Source: Acanthosoma haemorrhoidale
Lineage: Eukaryota; Arthropoda; Insecta; Hemiptera; Acanthosomatidae
Direction of reading: 5' to 3'
Length of the DNA: 64,000 nt
Assembly (NCBI GenBank): GCA_930367205.1
Contig: OV884011.1
Location: forward strand, 123,315,866 to 123,379,865
In this document: positions 4,500-37,200 of the stretch, piece after piece
How the letters are laid out: the number at the start of each line of letters is the position of its first letter
Position numbering within the stretch: position 1 is the stretch's first letter
Notes under the pieces: model-generated
Told to the model about the DNA's origin: nothing
What the model saw: only the letters and a program-made list of their open reading frames with translations
Databases searched by the model: none
Made by a program: the position numbers and the translations under genes

Positions 4500-7400
4500 C
4501 TGTGAACAAAAATACAAATAGAACCATTAGTGTATAACCATTTACTGAAAAGAGGAGGTACTTACAATCTACAAGAGATATATACCCTGTTTCCTAAGAA
4601 CCTGCTTTCAGCCAAGCAAGAGCACTTGACACTCAATTTATTGTATATATATAGTCAATAAAACATAACCATATTACCATATGTTAATTATATCCCACCA
4701 ATTTAGGATTGGAAAACACTATTTCCTTTAAATCATTGATCAGTCTTGTATCATATTTTAATAAATTATATTGTGTAAAATAACTATTTCTGTAATTTTA
4801 TTAGTTATAGGAATTATAGGTGTATGAAAAAATGCTTTACGAGATTGCGCATCCTATTCAGAATATTGCATTATGATTGAAGTTATCACTACTTAATTTT
4901 TGTTTGTTTTAAAGCATGTCTGTACATTTCTGTGTTTATGAAACTAGTCATGTGTGAATGATTTCATCAATATCAGATTTTAAAGGTATATTGAACAACC
5001 CTGGTTACCTAATTAATTAATTCTATAAGAAGAGTATTAAAATATAGACTATACCATATTGTTCAACAGGTAAGCTTTCTTCAACCTTATTTGTATACAT
5101 TTTTTCTCGAAGAAGGGAATAATTTATATGTTGCAGCGAGTCTATCATAGAGAGCAATCGTCTACAACAAAATATTGTTTTTATACAATATAGCTATAAG
5201 CTGGAGACATAACTATACAACTGTTATAGTATGATTTTATGAAATATCTGGGGTGGGGAGGGGGAGAGAGAGAGAGGAACTGGAAGACTTCTTCACTAAC
5301 ACAGCATCCACACCGAATTACGGCTATATCACCAGACTTAAATTACAGATAAAATGCTTCAAGAATTTCATTGAATATAATTTGAAAAAGAAAAAAGTAA
5401 AAGTAGTGATCACCCAGAATTTGAATTGCCCAAGGTGGATGATTTTGTTTACCGTTCTTTGATTTGTTCAACCACCTTGCCAATCCCCATCATCCTTCCC
5501 CAATGATGCCAGTGATATTATTTACATTTAGAGAATTTGAAGCCTCTCGAACCTGCTTTGGCCTGCCTTGGTTTGGAGCCTGCTTTGGTTTGAGGTGTAG
5601 TGAGAAATTTGAAAAGACGTGATCTAACATTTAGAAGAGACAAATCAAAAGTAGAATTTCAGAGGCTAAAGTGAAGATTGATCAAAAAAAGAAGACCAGA
5701 AGGAAGAATAAATGTAAATATTGTACATTTAAAGATAATTTTGTTGTTTGGAAGCTTACCTGTTTACCTCTAACGATTGCCAAAGTTTCATTTTGTAGGC
5801 TGCTGCTCTTGCAATGGTATTCTTGTCCATCACATCATTTAAAGCTGAGCAAAAGTCATTATTGCTATCTTCAGCATCTACGTTGTCCAACATTAACATC
5901 GTACTCTGCAAAGAACTGAAAATTAATGAAAACAACATCTCACCATTATCTATATAGTATTCTTTTTAATAAAAATAGTTTTGTTATTACATTTACTTTT
6001 GACAAGAATCGATACGCTATGTAATAGCAGGTATAACATCAGGACAGGTCTAGGCTCTGGCATAAAATCGAACTTATAAATGTCACTGAACTAATTAATC
6101 TAAGGAATAGCTCTTGTTGGTACTATAATAAATAACTAAATCTGTACAGGCTGTTCTGTTTAGAAAAGAACTTCTGAATACATTAAAACATAACAAACTG
6201 AGGTATACATTTTAAATAATTAGTGCCAGTTATGGAAGGGTATAATCAAATAATAAATCTTTCATCTTTCCACAATATAGTATTTATTTACCAGAAATAA
6301 TTCTGAAGATTTATAATTTAATTTGAGATACATTAATTTTTTGAAAATAATTTTTAGAATAACAAATACTGAAATATGATTAGTAATTCATAACCCAAGA
6401 TTAAAAAGAAAATAATTGGAAGAAAAGGAAGAACCTAATTGACAATGTATGTGATGTTTTTCTTCCTTTTAATCTTTATATCTCTATTGAAATGATTAGA
6501 TATCAGGTTGGCCAAAAAGTCCGTTCGGTTTTTTAAGCGAAAATAAGACACAACTTTTAAACACAAAGCGATTTATTCAATCAATGATATAATTGCCGTT
6601 TTGTTCCAGTATCTTCTGCCATCTCATGGGCAGATTCATAATTCCATGCTCAAAGAATTTCCTGTCTTTACTGGCAAAAAAATTTTCCAAGTAGATTTTT
6701 ACACCTTCAGAGTTGAAGGTCTGTCCATTCAATGATGGATTTTGAAGAGACCGTAACAGGTGGAAATCGGAAGGTGCAAGGTCGGGCAAATATGGAGGGT
6801 GCGGCAAAACTACCCAGCCAATTTCCAGTAACTTCTGCCACGTCTGCAAAGAAGTGTGCAGTCTGGCATTGTCGTGATGGAAGACAATCCCCTTACGGTT
6901 GGCTAGTTCTGGACGCTTCTGGTGGATCGCTGCATTTAATTTGTCCAGCTGGTCACAGTACACATCCGAATTGATGGTCCTGGTTCATGGGAAGAAGTTC
7001 GTAAAAGGCAACACCCCTCCAATCCCACCAAATCGAGAGTATAACCTGCTTTGGGGGTTGTTGGTGGTAATTCGCCGCGCTTTCCCCATGAGCGTTTGCG
7101 CTCCACATTGTTATAAACGATCCACTTTTCGTCCCCTGTCATCATTCTCTTAAAAAAAAAGGATCGTTTTCTTCACGTTTCCGCAACGAATCGAAGATGG
7201 AAATCCTTTGAGCGAGGTTAGCCTCACTAAGTTGATGGGGAACCCAAACATCGAGCCTGCTCACATAGCCAAGTTGATGCAGATGGTTTTCAACACTCGA
7301 TTTGGATATTTTGAGGATAACTGTGATCTCCCTAGTTGTATAACGGGGATTGGTGTTGACTAATTCATTCACTTAGTCGCTGTTAATCTCAGTTGGCCGG

Positions 7401-13400: not shown

Positions 13401-16400
13401 CCACGTATGAAGTTCTGGCTGAATGAAGTTCATTTCAAAGTGGAAAATTTGTTTGGAACCTCTATCTTAAGGCTGAGAGTGTTATGAAATGGTCATCTCT
13501 GGCAATTGGCATTACTGGTTATTAGCATTTATTCTATCAATGGAAGATTACATTAGAAGTTAATATATAATAATCCTGAATCCATTACTAATACCAGTGC
13601 TGGTTAGAACAATTCCATTTATGTCTAATGAAGATGTAAACAAACAAATATAAAATACAAAGTTATGTGCTAATTTTTCCCAGGAGTTTATATCAATTAC
13701 GCAGAACGGATCCTGCAGGAGTAAATAATATCATAGAACCGGTGCTGGTGAAACCAATTCAGCACATCAACCACGTCCTGTTTAGAGTCACAACCTACAG
13801 TAGCAGAAGAGAAGTGTATAAACTGCCAAGAATATGCCTAAACATAGAGGTATTGTTTTAAGTTACCAAAGTAGGTGCACTGTGACCATGCTCATGAAAC
13901 AAGAGACTGCCCTCGGGACTAGGCAATACCACTACAATGTGAAAACTGTAGGGAAGACCACGTCACATCTTATCAACAATGCCCCTAAAGGTTAAACTGC
14001 TACAGGTGACGAGACTCCAACTTCCGGCCTAACTACTGTCCTATGAGCTTACTAACGTACCAGTCAAAGCGGTTCTAGAAAATTATCCACCACCATCTCT
14101 CTCAACACTCCAAGACACAGGAGATCATCCCAATACAGCAGACTGGCTTCATCAAAGACCTGATTGTTGACTACAACCTTGTGTGGCTGTACGTAACTGC
14201 AACAGTACGTGGCTACAGGGTCACCCTGGAATCCTCCAAAACTTTTGACTCTGTGGACCACAACATACTGGTCCAGCTCCTGAAGGACTGCGAATCTCCA
14301 GCTACCAGACATATTAACTTCTTACCTCACCGGCAGAACTTTCTCATGAGGATAGGAACCACAACAACAACCCAAACAGATTTAGTCCCTCAAGGCACGG
14401 TGCTGGGCCCTCTTTTATTCAACATACACAACACACATTTTAGAAACCTCATCCGACAACAGTAAGATGGTGACGTATACATACAACATTGGGATCTATA
14501 GTACTAGCCTCGACCTTAAAAAAGCGGTAAAGACCACGTACCAACTTCAACAGCACCAATCCCTGAACTCTACCATATAAACATAAATGTGGCTGATACA
14601 CTATGTGCCACTGCAGGTCTCAAAGAGCACTGTGTTTAATAAAATGAAACCTCCAAAAACACATTAACAAATTTCCTGACCAAGTTCTGTAAAATAATAA
14701 TAAAATTTTAAATAATTAAAAGATTATACTACCAAAATCAAGAAAATGATCTTATGCATGCGAGCATCAACCACCTTGTGCTAATTTATTCTTTTTCCTC
14801 TTTCTGTGAATATTATTATTATTTCCCAAAGTTCTCAGATTTGAAATTAAGGAAGAAGAAAGAATGGAATTCAGGTAATAGGAATCTTTTGCTAGGAAAA
14901 AATATTGTTTGCATACCAGGTGAAGGAGTTTTTGGGTGAGGCACTAATAGTCTAGGAACAGTGGTGAGAGTTCACTGCAGGCTTTTCCTAGAATGACTAG
15001 GAGCTAGTCAATCAAAGATTGATAATTTTGACATACATTTGGAACATTGTTCATCAAGCATGTGTTGTTGGACCAGAGGCCAGTACAGTATGTCAATTAG
15101 TCCTTCCATGCCTGTGAACTATTTAGTTGTTCTATTAAATTGTGGCGAGGGTTGCAGGTTGTGACAGTCCTGGATGGAGTCGAAAAACTTGATGTGCCAG
15201 TTTCAGGACCCTCTAATATTAATAGGTTCAGTCTAAGAGAAAAAGCCCGGATTGAGATCTGGTGTCACTAGGATGAAGAAAGTCAAAAGCTAGGTGAATC
15301 TCTAAGTGGTATATAATGTTGGCGATTTTGCAGTCGATGCCATCCGGGATAAAGGTTTTTGGAAGTGATTTATAAATGTGTCCTCTGGCCAGCTCTGATG
15401 TAAGAAGCCTCACTATATACTCACTTGACTGACTGATGAGAAAACTGGTCAGACATAGACATACCTCTATCCAGAGGTTAAAGTACGCCGATCTGTACCT
15501 GTTGCTAGGTGTGCTTTCAGTGGGTAAGTTCATCCACTGGAGATACATTAAGTTTTGATTCCTTGCAGCACCTGACTAACCCAGTATTTAACACTATGAC
15601 CCCACCCCTATTTCCGTATTGATGGCAACAGGATGTCCAGGAAAACTAGTTCAAGTTAGTGAGTTAGATTTAGGTTAGTAATAGCATAACTCATTCTTAA
15701 GGAAAACCCTATCACTTGCTATGTTCATATAAATATTGTGTTCTATGTTTATGTAAATATTCTATATTGTGGAATCTGTAACTCACTCGTAAATATTGAA
15801 TATAAAGGGTTTTGAAAAAAATAAAATAAATCTTTCTTATCAGCCTGTTGGCGTTACATCCCCTCACACCTTCACACAAGTTGTTAGCATCGCTCAAAAC
15901 AGGGCAATACTGCAGCATATATTTTTTGGCTTTGAGTGCAAACAAAAAAGAAAAAGAAAAATACATTGATTAAAAATAACAAGTGAGTTCATGCATGCAG
16001 TTACCTGATCAGATCGATTAGATATTTCCTTTTTCAGATGAAGCATTAAATTTTCCCAGCAGACTACCTTTTCTTTAAGTTCCTAATAAATAAATAAACA
16101 ATAAAGGTTATAACACAGTGAAAATATCATGTTAGTTAATAATTTCAAAATGATTTGAAATTAAATTAATTACCATTAATTCTTGAAGTTGACTATTTAT
16201 GCTAGCATTACTAATCTCCCTGGTTATCTGAAGTTCTTCAAGCTGTAAATAATACTGATTTTGCAACATCACTACAACAATTTTATTGAGATTGTTAAAG
16301 AAAAATATAATAACAACATAAATAAATCACTACCTGTTCAGATTTAATCATTAATTCTTGATCCAACTCGTCCATTTTGTTTTGTTGAATGAGTATTTGA

Positions 16401-22400: not shown

Positions 22401-25400
22401 TTTCATAGTGAGTCTGCAACCCTGTTACTACCTGTATCCTTTTTCTCTCCCAGCACTTTGAACTGCGAAGGGATTCCAAGGAAACAATTCTCGTTTCCAA
22501 AATCCATTTGCTGACATAGTTCCAGTAACATTTTCATCACTTACACATTTGACCAATTTATGGAAATCTTTCTTTTTTTTGAATTGGGGCATTAATAACA
22601 CACAAAAAATGTTTCAATAGATATCTATCAGCTTAGTAGTTGGTATCTACTGGAAACAGTAATTCAACAAGCTTGAAATTTAAATATCTTATTACTAATC
22701 TGAATTACTTTCAACAGATTGATAATTTATGACAAACTAGTTTCACCATCCCAGTCAACTTCTAGACGGGATGTACTATCAGAAATTCAGTAATTGACCA
22801 CCCCTCTCACTAAATAATAAATTTTCCGTCTCTCCACGTTATAATGATTATTCAATATTAATGTTTTGACACTAACACTAACAAGAAAGCATTGTCATCT
22901 TCAGTTGTCAATTGATAGTCTGAAAAACTTATATCATTTGAAATAATTTCTATTAATTCACACTTTAAAATAGGTTTGCAATCTGTTAGAAAGAAAGATA
23001 GCAAACATTTCCACAATGGCTTGATGAAGATCAGTATTGAATACTGAAACGATCAACAAATAGAAAACTTAATTCAGTATTGAATCATTGGAGAAAGAAT
23101 GGATGCTTTGTAGAAGAAAATAAATAACAACGGCTGAATAGAAGAGTTTCACAGGTAAGAAATTTAGATAAATAAATAGTAAATAATAATAAATCTTTAT
23201 TTATTCACGAATTGTGGGGCTATAGCCCCCTAACATTAATGATACTAGAATGTAAGCAGTTAGCTTTACATCTCAAAGTAAACAATGTGCTTATTTAAAG
23301 ATAATAAAAAATAAATAAAAGACAGTAAACTATTTATAGAGTATGTCATTACACTTATAAATGGATAAAAAGAATGTTGAAGATAAAGTATTTAAATATA
23401 GGAAGAATTTTAGAAGGGGAATAATTCCAGAGGAAGGTTATCAAACGCCAGCCACAGTGCAATGAGCCAATGTACTCACATACAAAAGGAGGAAACAAGT
23501 GAAAGTATGGTTTTAATTGAAGAAATTGTAGGGAAAACAGCGAGAGTGGAGGGCTTAATAGAGGAAGGTAAGGAAATAGCTGCAGCTACAGGAAGAGTAG
23601 AGCACTCACTTTAGTATGTATTTAATTAAGAGTTCATTTATTCTTTCTAGTTACAACAAAGTTGTTATTATTTAGAAAAATCACTACAAAATGACATTAT
23701 ATTACTAAACTAAATATTTAATTAACACATAACACTAAATTACTCCTTATGAATGCAAAATTACTAATAGTATAATCATAATAGGTTTGTTCTAGCATGG
23801 TATTTCAAACAATTTTCGTTTTTATTAATTTAAAATAAACAAAATCAAACAAAAAGTTTGATTTTTACATAAAGCAGATGCCAAGAATGATCATTTATAT
23901 ATTATTCAAACAATTAAAATACATTATTAATTAGAAAAAAAATAATAATAAAGTAAGTCTGCATATTTAACCTTCAGAACTGCATAAATATCTTGTTTGA
24001 CCTAAACATGAAATTTTACATGGCGGCTGAACAATTTTTTTTTTTTATGTCAATTAGGGGCTGCTAAAAAGTTGTAATGACAATTTAAATGTTCCTCTAA
24101 AGTCCCAACACAAACTACAAATAAGAAAATTAAGATCTTTAATTAAATTTACTCTACTCAATGTAATAGAAAAATAATTACTTTTTTATGACCAAGTAAT
24201 TAATGACACTTAAACATGTTTTCTGGCTATATTTTTCATACTGATTAGTTGTAAAATAAAACTGCCTTGTAAAATTTAATGTTATAGTGTGTGTAGGGGA
24301 TGTACACAATTACCGAGGCAGAGGGTAGAAAACATAAAGGTTTCTTTTAAAAAAAACCAACAATAGCCTAAAAATTACAAGGTCTCTCTATATTATGGCA
24401 GGTACAGGGAATCAATTAGTCTGTTTCCTGCCAATATCTTTATTACTTCTGTACTAGTTATTAACTATAATAGCAGTTATAATTTTATTTCGCACTTAGT
24501 TTAACTTGTTCAAAGAAATATATTATTCAAGAAGTGGGATGAAATTAATTTTTTGAAAATCCAAAGTATTAAATACAAATAATAATTACAAAGCTGGTCT
24601 TTTAGAGCTCAGTTAAAGAAAAAAAACAAGGTGATAATATTATATAGTACTATTTTGCCCTTAATTAACCTAACAAAAAATAAAATAAAACTAAGTTGGA
24701 AGGATTTAAAATAACGCAAATTTACAGCTTGTACTGTTAATATCACTTAACTGTTAATTGTATTCATAGATAAAAAAAGGAAGCACTATTTCATCTATAT
24801 AGCCTTTTACAGCTAGTCGCTGTATACTTGGTTTCTTTAATAAACAATTAAAAATGGCAAGTAAAATGGTAACTAAAAAACTTCTATATCATTAAGTACT
24901 TTTGGCAGTTTAAATACTTCAATGGGTAAACATTAATACAACTACATTAAATACAATAAATCAACTACATATTAATGATTTTTCCCCTAGCCTTAATTTT
25001 GATTTATAATCTAAATAAATAAATGTAATTTATAGTATTTGTTAACAGGTAAACTTCTGTCATGGCTTTTCAGTAGTAAAGATTTGTGTTATACATCATG
25101 TACATGTCTTATTTGTCTATTCTGTGGCCAAGAAAAAATCCAACTTTTATTACTTACAGCTTCCGGTTCCTGATTTTGTGAAGCAGCCTGAAGCTTACAA
25201 ACCTACAGAAATATATCATTAATTTAAATTTAGGGGAGTAAAAGTATACATTTAAAAATAGTAATATTAAATAAACATGTTCAATTGAAAAAACATGAAA
25301 TAATACTACTCTATACCTTGGCTTGAAGTTCTTCCATAACTTTTTGATTTCTTTCTTCCATTTCAGCTTTCTCCAATTTCTACACAAACAACCTATCAAT

Positions 25401-28400
25401 TTTCATTTACATTTGTACGAAAAATAGTGAATATTAAAAATGAGGAATTGTAAATTGATTAATAAAAAAAACCATGCCATTAAACAACAAAATTAAAGGA
25501 TTTTATTGACAGTTTTAATAACTTTTTCCTAAAGCTGTAACACATAATACATGTTGCTAATCAGGATGTTGAGATCTTTGATCAACCATCAACTTTTCAA
25601 CCACTATTAAGAAGAGATAACAACTGAAACTATCCAGGCAAGTCAGGTTAGTTTGGGAACCTGAAGATCTCTTTACAAGTATACAGTTTATTGGACTAGA
25701 GTTAGATAGTTGACAAGGAACATCGCGATTAGGGCATGTCCTCAAAGCTAAATAGGGTATTACTAAAGCATTATTTCTTTTTTTAATTAACCAATTAATT
25801 AATACTAATAATTTATCATCTCTTACTTTTTTTAAGTAACCAATTAATTAATAATTTTTATTACTATTAAAAAAAAATGGATAATGAGTTTTTTCCAAGT
25901 GAAGTCCAACAATGATAATAGAAGATCTTGCTCTCTTACCTCCACACCCCATTTATATAGAATGAAACAAAACCAGGCAATCACCTCAGAGTTCCCGAAC
26001 ACAATCTGATGACTGAGGAATCACCCTTTTTTTTGCACAACAGTTTTGATACACTAAAAAACATGTAGACAATAGAGAAACAACTTAAACATCCCCAATC
26101 TTCATAAGAAATACTAGCAATTTTAAATTCAGTCAGGACTACAGTCATCACAAAAACTTATGGCCACTACATACTACGTTGTGTGCATTCCAGCACAAGG
26201 CCACTGATTGCAGAAACTCACAAGTTACCTTCAATATGTGCCCTTTGTTCTAAGGGCCATTTAACCAACTACAAGGGATGCCAGACATACAAAATAATAA
26301 TGATGAGCAGACTTCAATCACATTGCTTGTTGAACAAGAATAAAACAAGATGATTTAGTTTTCTCAATCAGAATAAGAATAATTTTGTAATTCAAAATTA
26401 ATTTATTACCAAGCTTGTGTACTCTTCTTGCATTTTTTGTAAATAACAATGACTTCTGGACAAGTCTTCTTGAAGACTTTGAAAAACATAATCTTTTTCA
26501 TCATAAGCCTGAAAAACAATTCAAATGTAGATTTTATATAATTTATAATGATCTAGGAGCTAATGAATTTTGTCACTTACACAAACTTCTTCAATTTCAT
26601 GTTCTTCACAACTTAATGGCTCAATTCCATAAGCCTGAAATAACAAAGCAAAAGTAATATAAAATTAAATTGTAAGTTAATAGTTCGGTGAAATTATAAA
26701 AGAGGTTTAGGTTGATGAAAAAAAAAAAATATATTAGACTTTCTCACCAAGCTTCTTTACTTCTCTACTATGCAAGCTCATTGAGATGGAAGTGATGTGG
26801 TGCAGACATATATACATTAGTATGAGGAAATGGTGAACAAAGATCTAGTTAAAGAAACACTAACATTTGTTTGTATTTTTCACCACCCTAAGCCAACTCT
26901 CGACAAATATACCCAAACATTATATAACTGTTAGATCATTTTAAAGTTTCATTTTGAGAACATAAAAATTCATCTCGACTTTACTACTACTCCCATACAT
27001 CATAACATACTCTGGAGTTCACTGAGCTCTTAAATAAATATAGCAATAACGATGTTAGCCCATAATAATAGTTTAACAAAATATAAAATGAGGGAGTAAA
27101 AGGAAATCATTACTACACATATTCTCGTTATTATACAGTCAAACCTCTATATATTGAACATGAAGGTTCCTTGAAAAATATTTGAAATATAGAAATTTTG
27201 ATGTATAGAATGATAGCAAATTTTCATCCTTGTCACACTAAAAACAATTATGGTTATTTTTTAGCATTAAAGAAGAATCAAAGGCAATTTTTTAGGGTTA
27301 AAGAAAATAACTGAATGATTAAAAACATTACTTTGAAAAATTGAACAAATTACATGTCATTGCAGATTTTTTGCATATGTACATGCATAATTTGTACGTA
27401 TTAACATGCAAAATAGTTTCTGTCTTTTTGTGTATAATTTATCATCGAAGCTGTTTCAAAGAAATATTCACTTTTATTCAGATACATAAAAATTTCCTTA
27501 GGGATGTTAGGAATAAATCTCAAGCCGTGATGCAGTTTCGAATGCTTCCATTATTTGTTCTCTACAAGTGTTTTCAGTTAATTCATCTTCTTTTCCGTCG
27601 TTGTCATCATAATTTTTTGGTTCATCCTGTTTAAGGCAGTCCTAGTCTTGATTGGTGGGGTAATCAGCCTCAAAAATTGCTCAAATTTGATTCCATCATT
27701 TATTTATCCCAATGAGTCAAGTGTTTTCATGCTTCATTTGTATTTTCAGTATCTGTTTGCACTTGATCTTCTTCAGGACTCTCTTCTACAAAACCAGTTT
27801 TAGCAAAACAGTTTTTTTATTGTAGTGGGTAAGACATCATCTCCCATTCTTTGACTAATGCACTTATACAATATCAAAGAAGTTTTTATGTAGGTTCATC
27901 ATTTTCAAATGCAAATATCAAGCGCTTCAGGATTCATTTTCGGTAATGTATTTTCAAATTTTTAATTACACATAAGTCCAAGGGCTGTAATTTAACAGTC
28001 ATATTTAGTGGGGGGAAAAAAAGCTTAACATTAGTCAATTTTCGTTCAACTGAACTAAGATGGACTGGGCAATTGTTCACAAAAAGAAGCACTTTTTAGT
28101 TTGATCACTTGTTTATCAAAGTTAGTTATCCAGTTCTCAAAAATTGCTCCAGTCATCCACCATTCATCATTAACCTCAAGTGATTTCACACCTTTAAAAC
28201 AACGTGGCTGTTTACTTTTTCCTATTAAAAGAAGCATTAATTTCTCATTACCTGTCATATTCACACAAATGACAGCCGTGATTCGTTCCTTACAATTTTT
28301 CCTCCAAAACATTTATTGTTTTTGAAAGTCAAAGTTTTATTGGGTAAACAGTTGAAAAAACTCCTTTTTCATCCATGTTGAACACATTGTCGGGCTCATA

Positions 28401-31137
28401 TTCTTTAAAAATGGTTTCGCCATTGAGAACATTATGCTTTTGAAACACAAGCACTTTCACCCGATATTATTTTTCTTGGACACCATCTTGCTTTTTAAAT
28501 TTATCGAGCCACCCACAGCTAGCTTGCAAGTCGGAGATTCCCAAAGTTGCACCACATTCAGTCCCTAAATTCCTTATGAGTGGTTTTGATACCGGCATGT
28601 TCTTATCTCGTATCATTTTCAGCCACTTTATTACCGCTTCAACGATTTTATCAAACTGTAAGGATTTAAATCGTTTCCGATCTCCAAATCTTTCAGACAT
28701 TTTAATAACTGAATCACAGTTTTTGTAAATTGTTGATACCATATTTGTCATAACTTCATATTTTTTGCCACATCTTTATTTTTTATCCCTCTGTTTATAT
28801 CTTGTATTAAGTTGTAATTTTTTTTTCACATTTAATGTTTTTTCATTTAGTAGCCATATGACAAGAAAGACAAAGTTAAACTGAATTTAAAATAAAAATT
28901 TCACTCAACATTTTAAATGTTAGGCAAGAGATTCAAAGAATCTCACACCTGTGGGTAACATAATTAACTCTTCTCAAACACGGAATTTCCATTGCTTTGT
29001 GAAACATGTTTTTTTTTTGTTATGTGAACATAAAATAAGTAGCCTTTTTGATGAGAATTACATTTTATATTTTTGTATTATTATTTTAAATTTGAATAAG
29101 TGCGGGGAAAATGGGCTGGGCCAGTCAGCTGTTACAATAAAGTGAGGGTGGCGCAAGATACACCAGTAAAATGAGTTGGTTGGCACCAGTTCCACCAACC
29201 AAACCAAAGTTAATGGATGGTCAAGGATATTTGCATGTGGAAACATTGCACGGCGGTCATATTATGTGAAGAATGCAGAAAATATTAACGTAACCAACCA
29301 GGCAGCATTATTAATTGGGATTTCAGAATCAAAAAAGGACACTATTTAAATTGGAACAAGCCAAATTGAATGACAAAAACTAGTTAAGAACTCGAAACAT
29401 ATATTATTTTAGCATGTTTATGTTTAAATATGTTTGGTTGTCAAGACCCAGCCCCTGAGATATCAAGAATAAATTCTAAGTTTAATAATTATATTTTATC
29501 ATGATAAATATCATAACTTCATATTTTTTTCAATTCTGACTTTTTTTTTTCATATATAGAAATTTTATTCAATATGCAGAATATTTTTTCCTAATAAAAA
29601 TTCAAGGTTCCTAAAAGTTTCATTGCTTTTTTTTTTATGTTGACATTTTTGTTATATGAAGTTCGACTGTATGTTCATATTATTAATAAGATTTATATTG
29701 AACAATCCATTACACAGTTTTAAATGTTGTGATTATTTTTATTTTAAAACTTACATCCTGATAAAAAGGTATATTAACATCCCATTCCTGTTTTCCTTGA
29801 TACGAATCGTGTGCAATGCCTTCGGCCCTTTGTTGTGCCTGAAAATAAAAATCATGACTTGTATTGTCATAGCAAAAAAAAAATCTACCGATTTTGCAAG
29901 CATAGGACACAAAACTATTTAAACATATAAGATTATTTAATTTTTTTAACCATCAGCATTTGAAATACATATTGTGCGTCCAGAAGTTCTGCAAAATTCC
30001 GCACAAAGCTTGGGCACGCTCATTCGAGGATTTTTCTGATTTGATTAGTAATGGGTCTTTTATCTCTAACAATTAACAATTTTGGACGGACACTTTTTTC
30101 ACCCTCATGAAGCTGATTTTCACTTCTGTATCTTTTTATTATACTTCCCACAGTAGACACAGGCATCTAACTAATTATTTTTGTGGTTTCACCTTTTTCT
30201 TGTAAAAATAATTATTATAATACACTGCTCAGTTGTTGAATTTTTACTTTTATGTCCCATTTTAAAAACTTCTTCTTTCCAGTTTGGTTATCAGTTATGT
30301 AGTGAAGAAGAAACGTTTAAAAAAAAGAAATTATATTGAGGATTAGTAATAATTATGGTTTCCGAATAAATTTGACACCTAATAATCTTGAACTTTGCAC
30401 TCTTCAATCTGATACTTTATTAAATAAATATACTTTTCACTTAACTGGGTAGTGATTTTACTTATTGGGAATATTCTTTAAAGAGTTATTTGCTTTAAAA
30501 CCTAAGAGGTGTAAAAAGAAAAAGCCATACTAACATCCCATTCCTGTTTCCCAAACAGGGGAACTTGCGCATGGCCTTCAGCCCTTTTCTGTGCCTGGAA
30601 ATGAAAACCATAATTTGTATTGTGCCATTATACATATTTCAGCTATTTTGTAAGCATCACATAAAAAACTACATCTATGATTATTTCTATTTTCAATATA
30701 CAAAAAACAAAACATTCGAAATATTTTGGAAGCCCTACACAGAAAATTACACCAGGATTACTTATTTTTCTAATTACCAGCTGAATTATTGTAGAAACTA
30801 ATTCATCTGTTGTATTTAAATGTTGAAAATTAACTTCTCATTAATTCCATTCCATTTAATATATTATATTTTTACAGTTTTAGACGTGCAGATTGTTTTT
30901 ATTTTAAAACTTACAACCTTATAAACAAAGCATACTAACATCCCTTTCCCGTTGTCCAACAGGTGAACCTTCTGCAATGCCTTTGGCCCCTCTTCGTGCC
31001 TGAAAATAAAAATCATAATTTGTATTATACCATAGCAAAACATTCTACCTATTTTACAAGCTCTACATAGAAAACTGAATGTACAATTATTTCTATTTTT
31101 AATTATCACAGCTAAATTATTTTGGAATGAGTTCATC

Positions 31138-31213
<76 letters not shown>

Positions 31214-34200
31214 TATTAGTCAACTAAGTTCTCTTAATTGTATTCCCTTTGATATATCATTGTATTATTTGAATGATTTATACTGAAAAATTCATGAAAC
31301 ATGGATGTACTGACTTGCTTCATTAGGGGTCATAAAAGGGTTACCTAAGTATTTAAACAGAATAAATAAAAACATTACATTTGCATCAGAAATAGAACAA
31401 TTCAAAGCAATTAATTTTCTGGATTTGACATTGAAGTGGGAAAAAACAGGGATTCAGGATATACAGGAAAGACACGATGACCTATGTATCAATATGTAAG
31501 ACTTCTTTGCACAATCACAGTCACAAGATGGCCTGTTTCACTTCCTCATTAATAGATTACATAACATCCCAATAGACAGGGATAAATATGATAAAGGGCT
31601 TAGATATATATATACACCATGTAGAAGTAGCCAATGAGTACGATACAGAAACTACAACAAGAATCAAATGAAAAATTGAGTACAGAAGACTGACGAAAAA
31701 GAATACAAATAAAAATAACTAGAAAAAATGGTGCACCAGCCCATATTTAGGAAATATTTCTGAAAAATTAGTGAATATTTTTAAAAAAGTAGGCATTGGT
31801 GAAGCCTTTAAAAGTAAAGCCACTTTACACAACTCAATTACCCAAACTAAAGATACAATTCAGTTAAAAGATAGATTGGGCATGAAGTGGGAAGAGGGAA
31901 TAGAGTGCGGGAATGCAATAAATCTTATGCCGGGGTAGATCTAATAGATAATTATCAATTAGATGCAAAGAAAATCTTAAACCAAAAACAAGCAAGTTCT
32001 GTCAGCATCTACAGGAGGAAGGGCATCTTGATGCACCACATAGAGTTGCCTAGCTACACCATATAAATGATAGAAGTAATAAATAATAAACACAAGTATG
32101 CTAAGAAACCCCCCCCCTTCCATACCTCCTAAATAAAGGCAGTTGAGTTGTAAAGTTAAGTCTGAAGAGATTGCAAACCTATATTAAAGGCTGAATTAAT
32201 ATAAATTATTTCAAATGCAGTAAGTTTTTTCACACCATCAATTAGGTGAGTAGCCATGAGATATGTGTATTATTGTGTTTTTTTAAATTTAATTATTTAT
32301 TACATGTGTTGAATTTAATTTTTTTTTTAATTTTAGTAAAATGGGTGGACCACTTTTGACTAGGTGTAAATTCAGTACTGTTAATATTTCGAATATGTTT
32401 TACATATTCATTGTTGCTTTTAATGATAGATTTTGTTTCTCTCCATATGCCCAGTCAAGGTTTTTATCATGTGACTTTTCATTTTAGCAAACTAAAGATG
32501 GACAGAGTAGAGCTGAGGAAAACATTATTGGTGAATAAATACATTGTGGAAAGACTTATTCTTTAATCCATGATACATTTTAAACATTCAGATTATTTTT
32601 ATTTCAAAATTTACAACCATATAAAAAAGCATACTAACATCCCATTCACGTTGTCTAACAGATGAACCTGGTGTAATGCCTTCGGTTCTTCTTTGTGCCT
32701 GGAAATTAAAATCATAATTTGTATTGTGCCATTATGCACATTTCACCTATTTAATAAGCAGCACATAGAAAACTGCATCTATGATTATATCTATTTTCAA
32801 CTACCAGCTGAATTATTTTATAAATTAGTTCATTATATTTATTTAGGCTCGAATGACTTCAAGCAATAAAAAGTTCAAATAGCTTTCGATAATAAAAACT
32901 TCATTATCGAGCAGTAAACCCTAAGAAATAATGGATGAGTTTGATAAAAAGATAAAATAATCATGGGGGAGTCAGAGCCACCAAAATCAGAAGAAATGTA
33001 TAACAATACTATTGGAAGGTCCTCGAACCCAGAAGACTGTGCTATACACATTTATATTATCCCTGTGATAGATGAGAATAGTTGGGAAAATTCAAATAAT
33101 TAAAAATTTTCTGAAAAGATGAATTGAAAATGGCTGTTCATACAAAAGATGGTCAGTCCAAAAATTGTCTCATTTGGTGAGGATTGAACATACGTCCTCT
33201 TCCTTTGGGTGATTCTAGATAACTGCTACCTGATCCTAGGTTGAACTATGGAAATTGGCCCTACCCAGCTTACAAAATCTTCTTATGGATACCGTTCCTA
33301 CCGAAGAGGAGATGGCTGATGCGAGTTAGAAAAATAATCATTGTTTATATCAAGTGCCATTAATTATTCCCACTCCAAATGATAATTGAATATGAACATT
33401 TTTTTAAGACCTTAAAAGAAGGGCCCAGTTGGTAGAGGCCTCAGGTGGTGGGTGACCTTGGAACAACCTATCTTTAACTAATGTGAAGGTCACATATTAA
33501 ATTGAGCCTGGTAAATCAGCATCGAACCTCAGTAAATGGCCTTAGGAGGGCAAAGAGGAAAGGCTCTGGATGATTCGTTCAGAAGTAGCAAACACGTATT
33601 ACTTGAGAGACTTATGCTGCACAATCCTTAATACATTTTTAGAAAGGTTCAGATTATTTTTATTTAAAAACTTATAACCTTATGAAAAAGCATACTAACA
33701 TCCCTTTCACGTAGTCCAACAGGTGAACCTGGTGCAATGCCTTCGAATCTTCTTTGTGCCTGAAAAAAATCATAATATGTATTGTGTCATTACAAACTTC
33801 CACCTACCTATTCCATAAGCACTGTGCGAAAAACTACATGAACAATTAGTTCTATAATAACTACCACGTAGTTGCTATACAGGACATAAAATTATTATTA
33901 CAAACTTCCGCCTATTCCATAAGCACTGGACAAAAAACTACAACTAAAATTATTTCTATTTTTAACTACCAGCTAAATTCTTCAAGAAATTAAATTAGTT
34001 CATTATATTTAAATTTAGTTAATTGTCATTTATTTGATCATATTCCCTCTGATATTTCTTGGTATGATTAGAAAGACTTATGCTGCATAATCCTCAATAC
34101 AATTTGAGAAAGGTTCAGATTATTTTTATTTCAAAACTTATAACCTTATGAAAAAGCATACTAACATCCCTTTCACGTTGTCCAACAGGCGAACCTGGTG

Positions 34201-37200
34201 CAATGCCTTCGAATCTTCTTTGTGCCTGAAAAAAATCATAATATGTATTGTGTCATTACAAACTTCCACCTACCTATTCCATAAGCACTGGGCGAAAAAC
34301 TACATGAACAATTAGTTCTATAATAACTACCACGTAGTTGCTATACAGGACATAAAATTATTATTACAAACTTCCGCCTATTCCATAAGCACTGGACAAA
34401 AAACTACAACTAAAATTATTTCTATTTTTAACTACCAGCTAAATTCTTCAAGAAATTAAATTAGTTCATTATATTTAAATTTAGTTAATTGTCATTTATT
34501 TGATCATATTCCCTCTGATATTTCTTGGTATGATTAGAAAGACTTATGCTGCATAATCCTCAATACAATTTGAGAAAGGTTCAGATTATTTTTATTTAAA
34601 AACTTATAACCTTATGAAAAAGCATACTAACATCCCTTTCACGTTGTCCAACAGGCGAACCTGGTGCAATGCCTTCGAATCTTCTTTGTGCCTGAAAAAA
34701 ATCATAATATGTATTGTGTCATTACAAACTTCCACCTACCTATTCCATAAGCACTGGGCGAAAAACTACATGAACAATTAGTTCTATAATAACTACCATC
34801 TGACTTCATAGAGAAATTAAATTAATTCATTACATTTAAATTTAGCTAATTATCTTTTCTTTATTCGTATTCCCTCTGATATTTCTTGGTATTACTTGAG
34901 AGACTTATGCTGCACAATCCTTAATATATTTTTAGAAAGGTTCAGATTATTTTTATTTAAAACCTTACAACCTTATGAAAAAACATACTAACATCCCTTT
35001 CTTGTTGTCCAACAGAACTTGGTACAATGCCTTCAGATCTTCTTTGTGCCTGAAAAAATCATTATTTATATTGTGCCTAATAGAATAACTACCTAGTAGA
35101 AAACTACAACTAGGACTTTTTTATTTTGAACTATCAGCTGAATCCTGCTAGAAATGAAATTAGTTCATTATATTTAAATTTAGCCAATTAACTTTTCTTT
35201 AATTACATTCCCTCTGGTATTTCTTCACCCTTTTAATAATTCAGATTAATTTTATCTCAAAACTTAAAACCTTATAACAAAGCATACTAACATCCCTTTC
35301 ACGTTGTCCAATAGGTGAACCTGGTGCAATGGCTTCGGTTCTTCTTTGTGCCTGAAAAAAAATATCATAATTTGTGTTGCCCCATTACACAGAACACTAA
35401 ATCTATTATTGTTTCTTTTTTCAACTGCTAGCTGAATTATTTTAGAAATTAAATTAGTTCATTATATTTGAATTTAGACAGTTAACTTCTCTTTAATTAT
35501 AAACTGTGTATAATTTGAAAGATTTATGGTGAACAATCCATAATACAGTTGTAGACGTTCAGCCTACTGTTGAACCTCGCTAATCCGACTTCCACCAGTA
35601 CAAAAACCCGGGTAGTCTGTGGCCCCCCCCCCCCATAATGTACTCAACATTCTTGGAATTGCGGGCGACCAAACTGGCAAGTTCACATTGAGAATTTCTC
35701 CAAAAATGTTAATCCAATTGAAACCTTCTCCCATCCTTCCAGTTTTACGTTGTTTTTTTTAGCGGAAAGCCTCAATCATTCAGCATCAATGAAAAATCTA
35801 CATTAATTTTATTCTAAAACATACAACCTGATAAAAAGGCATAATAACCTGTGATTCAGGTCGACCCGCTGGCAAACTTTGAGCAATGTCTTTGGCTGTT
35901 TTTTCTGCCTGAAAATAAAAATCATAATTTTTATTATGCCATGAAAAAATTTAAAACTATTTTATCTATTTCACTAATAATACACACAAAACTGCCTCTG
36001 TGATTATGTTTTGCTTTTTCAATACCCAGGTGTATTTCAGAAATTAGTATACTATTTTTACATTCCAGAACCACTATATTACCCCAAATGAGCTAATAAT
36101 GGCATGAATTTGTTTAAAAGGTATCCCATATGTTTTTTCAGCAAGTGTAACTGGTTGATAATTTTAAGATCCTCTAGACAGACAATGATTTTTTTATTTG
36201 CAACTCTGTAAATAGAAGTGGGCGACTCCTGACTTCTTACCAAACTTGTGCGGACTTGCATTTTTTCCAAATAAGGATCACTTCTGGATAAGCCTTTTTT
36301 AAGAGTTTTAGTAAAATCATCTTTGGCATGGACCTGAAAATTAATCCAAATATAGTTTTTATAAATTTTATCTTAATCTAAACACAAATGAATTTGTCTA
36401 CTAACACCAAATTGTTTGTTTGCACGATCTTCACTACCAGATGGCAGTCTATCATAAATCTGCAATCAAAAATAAAAGTAATATATAACTGTTGTGTAAT
36501 TCAAATAATTAGTTTCAGATTGAAAAAATTAAGATCTTACCTCAGTTTTTCTACTACTAGGCAAAGTTAACCGATTCAGTAGTTTACTGAGCTGTTAAAT
36601 AAACATAGTATTAACAATAATGATCTAAGCCATTAAAAATAATTTAACACAATATAAAATGAGAAATTGAAAAGAAAGGAGAGAAAACAGAAAAAATAAA
36701 ATTTTGAGTCAGCACATTTTAATTTATACGGTACATAAAAAAAAAGTAGCATATGCCATCACTCAAAAAAAATTTAAATCCTTTTTAATTACACTCAAAA
36801 GAGCATGTGAATTTTCTATGAAACCTCAAAGCAGTAAATATAAATTAGTAGTTTTAAGTTAACTCATATTTTTTTGGAAATGGTGTTTGTTAAATCCCAT
36901 ATCATCTCATTGTAAATATTTTGTAGAAATATCTGCATAAATTAATAATTTTTTTGGTATTAATAAAATATACTATTACTATTCACAATATTGGTACTGA
37001 GCAAACAAAAATGTAGACAATAAAAAAGAAGCTAGTTCTTTCATAATAATAATAAAAAACCAGTATTTAAAAGTACTATTTTAGCTTCTGTACTTAAGAG
37101 TAAAATTAATTACAACATATATGTATAGAATGATCTTTAGAAAACTGACCTGCTGTTTCATTGTATTATTCTCATCTTTTATAGACTTCATCGATAATCT

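Follow-up and report, generated by a model that had tools for sequence, protein, structure and literature searches.

What does a gene for a long coiled-coil protein gain from ten tandem copies of one small exon, and are these copies kept for the residues they encode or for the length they add? The question is raised by a window of DNA, the 64,000 nucleotides (64 kb) that we analysed from contig OV884011.1 (assembly GCA_930367205.1) of the true bug Acanthosoma haemorrhoidale. The original prediction placed ten duplicated exons on the minus strand, one of them a codon short and all with phase 0 at both ends, and all ten are found at that place. Of the interval given for them, 29755..35908, the right edge stands; the left edge belongs to an alternative 84-nt form of the last copy, whose 60-nt form starts at 29779, so that the array of ten copies occupies 29779-35908.

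Nine of the ten copies are 60 nt long. Read along the minus strand, the first copy, u1 (35849-35908; AEKTAKDIAQSLPAGRPESQ), is among the most diverged, together with u9 and u10, and is followed by u2 (35292-35351) and u3 (34993-35049), which at 57 nt lacks one codon. The three middle copies, u4 (34632-34691), u5 (34166-34225) and u6 (33700-33759), lie within a tandem unit of 466 bp (98% matches), which indicates that part of the duplication is recent. They are followed by u7 (32639-32698) and by u8 (30940-30999), in which the 24 bases downstream of the exon carry a 1-base insertion directly past the +60 donor; the same 24 bases are rearranged in u9 (30535-30594). The middle of u9 itself has been rewritten with the frame kept, by two compensating indels that were read by eye from the alignment, the aligner itself having placed none. 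The last copy, u10 (29779-29838), has a second, stronger donor (GTAAGT) 24 bases past +60, which gives the 84-nt form (29755-29838) and explains the earlier left edge. The intron before u8 contains 36 perfect TA copies (31141-31212).

All ten exons are preceded by CAG. The donor at +60 is GTTAGT in eight copies, GTTATT in u1 and GTTAAT in u10, and the usual GAT/GTTAGT scores only 0.4 on a generic matrix. A nucleotide profile built from the ten copies recovers all of them, by construction, at E 2e-48 to 1.2e-35; no further copy of the repeat exon was found in the 64-kb window, the next-best match having E 0.024. The unit could still derive from a transposon, although its profile gave no further copy within the window, the stretch that was searched.

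The array lies in a coiled-coil gene that spans 5101-63209 on the minus strand, with its 5' end beyond the window. An exon scan that used generic tables of splice signals and codons returned, at scores >8, 39 minus-strand candidates with phase 0/0, all ten array exons among them, versus 19 and 8 in the other symmetric classes; the plus strand yielded 4, 7 and 5 candidates in the three symmetric classes. The joined translation matches four protein entries (7986 candidates scored), including Halyomorpha halys X4 and X13 and one protein from Nezara viridula, and tblastn pieces of these relatives (queries P0001, P0002 and P0004, with P0003 left out) are collinear on the minus strand from 63209 down to 5101. 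Judged by this collinear similarity, the host gene is the same gene as the H. halys 'putative leucine-rich repeat-containing protein DDB_G0290503'. The host product is 53.9% identical to the predicted H. halys coiled-coil protein (P0001) over 1168 alignment columns, versus 77% identity between the H. halys and N. viridula proteins, and the window species therefore falls outside that pair. More distant relatives, under the names that their sources give, come from other true bugs, a leafhopper and beetles. For the host protein, no family reached the curated cut-off in Pfam or NCBIfam and no solved structure matched; the rows from NCBIfam, well short of cut-off, are models of SMC and Rad50. A literature search for the DDB_G0290503-named protein of H. 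halys found no paper.

It had been suggested that the symmetry of the exons lets any subset be included or skipped without a frame change. The tandem duplicates in an arthropod coiled-coil gene are borne out, whereas phase 0/0 as a special feature is not, since it also occurs in 33 of the 36 exons examined outside the array. This count was made with the frame fixed and all three phases allowed, on 26 exons taken from a phase-0-only list and on 10 that tblastn or an unrestricted scan had supplied, 7 of the latter 10 being 0/0. Phase 0/0 is thus common to most of the gene and not special to the array.

The relatives also offer information on how the gene may be spliced. Between predicted isoforms X4 and X13 of H. 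halys the differing blocks are 228 and 28 residues long, between predicted isoforms X4 and X8 of Cimex 94 and 17 residues, with no mismatch elsewhere in either pair. Mismatch-free differences of whole in-frame blocks argue for cassette splicing in this gene; the host gene probably uses it as well, and the skipping or inclusion of blocks seems to be its habit. On the minus strand at 25089-25202, reading through past the donor of the exon at 25158-25202 gives VSNKSWIFSWPQNRQIRHVHDV and then a stop. This end resembles the C-terminus of P0004, VSNKSWLFPWPQSR, and is probably a conserved alternative short protein end.

The surroundings of the array have themselves been duplicated. The array sits between minus-strand exons E2A (36241-36333) and E1B (26581-26634), and the segment from E1A (36406-36459) through an intron to E2A duplicates the segment from E1B through an intron to exon E2B (26410-26508) at 69.7% identity over 304 aligned bases (E 1.1e-39); upstream of the duplicated block lies exon E0 (36541-36591; LSKLLNRLTLPSSRKTE), likewise on the minus strand. 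E2B is orthologous to the H. halys and N. viridula proteins, and E2A is its diverged duplicate. Identities between the duplicates are 67/93 in E2, 52/72 in the intron and 33/54 in E1, meaning that the duplicated exons have diverged as fast as the intron, or faster. Because the divergence of E2A equals that of the E1-E2 intron, decay may extend to the inserted block as a whole. This is the main rival explanation, in which E1A-E2A and the repeat exons would be leftovers that most or all transcripts skip, the working protein would join E0 to E1B, and the splice signals would be conserved by inheritance or weak background effects; we hold it to be less probable than our preferred reading. No homology of the repeat to E1 or E2 showed in the unit-profile search of the window, in which neither exon came up.

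Transposon remains are also present. The intron between the array and E1B contains DDE_1 remains on the minus strand at 28058-28775 (Pfam E 4.4e-13 for 28058-28312), which we take to be pogo-like. Elsewhere in the window are mariner-like transposase pieces on the minus strand at 6580-7148 (Transposase_1 at 6580-6984, E 8.4e-06; nothing in Pfam for 7029-7148) and a reverse transcriptase fragment on the plus strand at 14079-14462 (RVT_1, E 9e-08).

A decaying block would also agree with the distribution of the repeat, which is absent from the four fetched proteins of the closest relatives. A motif scan of 19 fetched proteins (P0001-P0019) did not find it; a loose pattern matched twice, in P0008 and P0012, both unlike the unit. 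A search scored on the array region, covering the 7996 candidates that shared most words and had lengths of 0.55-1.75 x 1079 residues, gave nothing at E up to 1. As one family search with the host protein had omitted nine of the ten repeats, the whole array was searched separately, giving two weak matches among solved structures, at E 0.001 to alpha mating factor and at E 0.23 to an IgA1 protease, and a single match in Pfam that stayed below threshold; a four-unit piece gave four sub-threshold Pfam rows, the best being Fibrinogen_BP at E 0.0033. At the array site itself, the H. halys protein is longer than that of N. viridula by 11 residues, and P0004 has no linker. Residues 1199-1220 of H. 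halys P0001, at this site, form an 11-residue near-duplicate (TSDNLLLEDVG, TTDNLLVEDVC), which suggests a tendency of the linker to duplicate that is not confined to a single bug.

Each of the ten copies has an open phase-0 frame, with no stop and no net frame shift within the exon. Frame +1, used as a control, is equally open in 10/10 copies, so the open phase-0 frame is weak evidence, and the equal openness of the two frames is what a decaying block would also produce. Such a block is harder to reconcile with the neutral simulations, which ignored indels and in which ten copies stayed free of stops in 1.6% of cases (1000 runs) or in 1.7% and 10.7% under two base compositions, and with the fact that both indels read within the exon preserve the frame.

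What is new here is where the copies change: change is lowest at the acceptor, has a second low at the +60 donor, is intermediate in the exon body and is highest in the far intron. Across eight copies (omitting u5, u6 and columns present in <8 copies), the acceptor has a mean pairwise difference of 0.11 and the +60 donor one of 0.13, against 0.28 for the exon and 0.47 for the far intron. Column permutation separates the exon from the splice signals with p 0.0004, and for far intron versus exon 0 of 20000 permutations reached the observed value to four decimals. In a sliding profile of change, all twelve lowest windows fall between -22 and +7, at the acceptor, and a second, shallower low falls at +55..+75, not +84. 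The position of this second low speaks against the 84-nt form, already broken in most copies, as the true exon. Although u1 and u10 have an in-frame GTATGT or GTAAGT at +84, an in-frame GT occurs there in only 4/10 copies (u1, u3, u7 and u10), and we consider this reading very improbable.

Parsimony counts agree with the pairwise figures. With all ten copies, and region counts taken on columns present in >=8, the acceptor shows 0.41 changes per site and the donor 0.62, the stretch +14..+28 shows 0.86, the exon 1.28, the stretch +29..+50 1.26 and the far intron 1.91-2.00. There are fewer changes than in the exon both at the acceptor (binomial p 0.0014) and at the donor (p 0.046), and in the near downstream intron (+29..+50) the rate of change matches that of the exon (p 1). 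Since the copies share descent and the nodes of their tree are weak (support 37-95), these figures are to be taken as guides. Splice signals that change significantly less than the exon body speak against a decaying block.

Within the exon, no such restraint is seen. Parsimony changes fall 25/27/25 on the three codon positions, and pairwise differences among six copies (omitting u3, u5, u6 and u9) fall 90/84/64; one identity row of the repeat-unit alignment omits u5 and u6. The ratio pN/pS is 1.27 for eight copies (u5 and u9 left out), for which neutral simulations gave medians of 1.14 and 1.00 (300 runs each), and 1.69 for the six inner copies. The original prediction had looked for dN/dS near one together with frame-breaking changes across related species as a sign against a functional array: among the copies, substitutions inside the exons do look neutral at the protein level, but stops and net frame shifts are absent. 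This neutral pattern inside the repeat exons would suit a decaying block. A ratio slightly above 1, in adjacent homologous exons of equal length with differing residues, would also suit Dscam-like mutually exclusive exons, with one copy used per transcript and the copies diverging as versions of one segment. However, all copies are symmetric, so multiple inclusion would be harmless, and the three near-identical copies of the 98%-match unit would provide no diversity; mutually exclusive use is thus very improbable. Overall, the splice signals look constrained and the encoded residues free, a combination that a length-variable linker fits better than a conserved motif.

Our preferred reading, to which we give a probability of roughly 0.55, is that this true-bug gene, which encodes a long coiled-coil protein, has acquired a lineage-specific array of cassette exons. 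It starts from what is directly supported, namely the copies, the conservation of their splice signals, the flanking duplication, the orthology of the gene and the absence of the repeat from the fetched relatives. A segment with exons E1 and E2 would have been duplicated. Between the two resulting segments, a small phase-0 exon would have grown to ten copies as exon and intron were duplicated together in tandem. Because the surrounding introns are in phase 0, the repeat exons could be spliced in at any number with the frame unchanged. The product would be a linker rich in R, A, G, Q and E, between 0 and 199 residues long, in a region whose length differs among the relatives as well. The 199 encoded residues comprise 15% R, 12% A, 12% G, 11% Q, 10% E and 7% P, a composition that suggests the linker is probably unstructured and may form a flexible stretch between coiled-coil parts of a long rod-like protein. 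Variable inclusion is the likeliest use of the repeat exons, where both the splicing and its variability are what we infer from the DNA, and the length of the linker would be what matters.

A more far-reaching proposal, which we regard as doubtful, is that selection keeps exon definition (acceptor, +60 donor and frame) and not amino acids. The locus would then encode a genetically length-tunable coiled-coil hinge, whose repeat number would vary among individuals and tissues as a result of exon skipping and unequal crossing-over. Provided that the exons are spliced, the array is a young one, observed in the middle of its expansion, in a gene whose exons are mostly exchangeable, and its constrained splice signals and free residues would allow a direct test of linker length alone as the selected trait.

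Three known systems can be compared with this locus. The closest in descent are the DDB_G0290503-like protein of H. halys (X4 and X13) and its relatives in N. viridula and Cimex lectularius, which represent the same gene with block-wise isoforms; their fetched sequences lack the repeat, and H. halys has its 11-residue near-duplicate instead. The aphid bicycle genes also have many small internal exons, nearly all in one phase (PMC9168663); there the phase is 2 and the products are putative gall effectors, whereas the host gene here has phase 0 (33/36 exons) and encodes a coiled coil. The closest in working is the PEVK region of titin (TTN), although the host protein and the repeat sequence here are unrelated to it: no titin appeared among the array's solved-structure or Pfam matches, and the host protein matched no solved structure. 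In titin, small PEVK repeat exons duplicate in tandem and are spliced in at variable number, and in PEVK-C length is said to dominate over selection on particular exons (PMC6469411). The array described here is likewise a tandem series of homologous in-frame exons, for which variable splicing is predicted.
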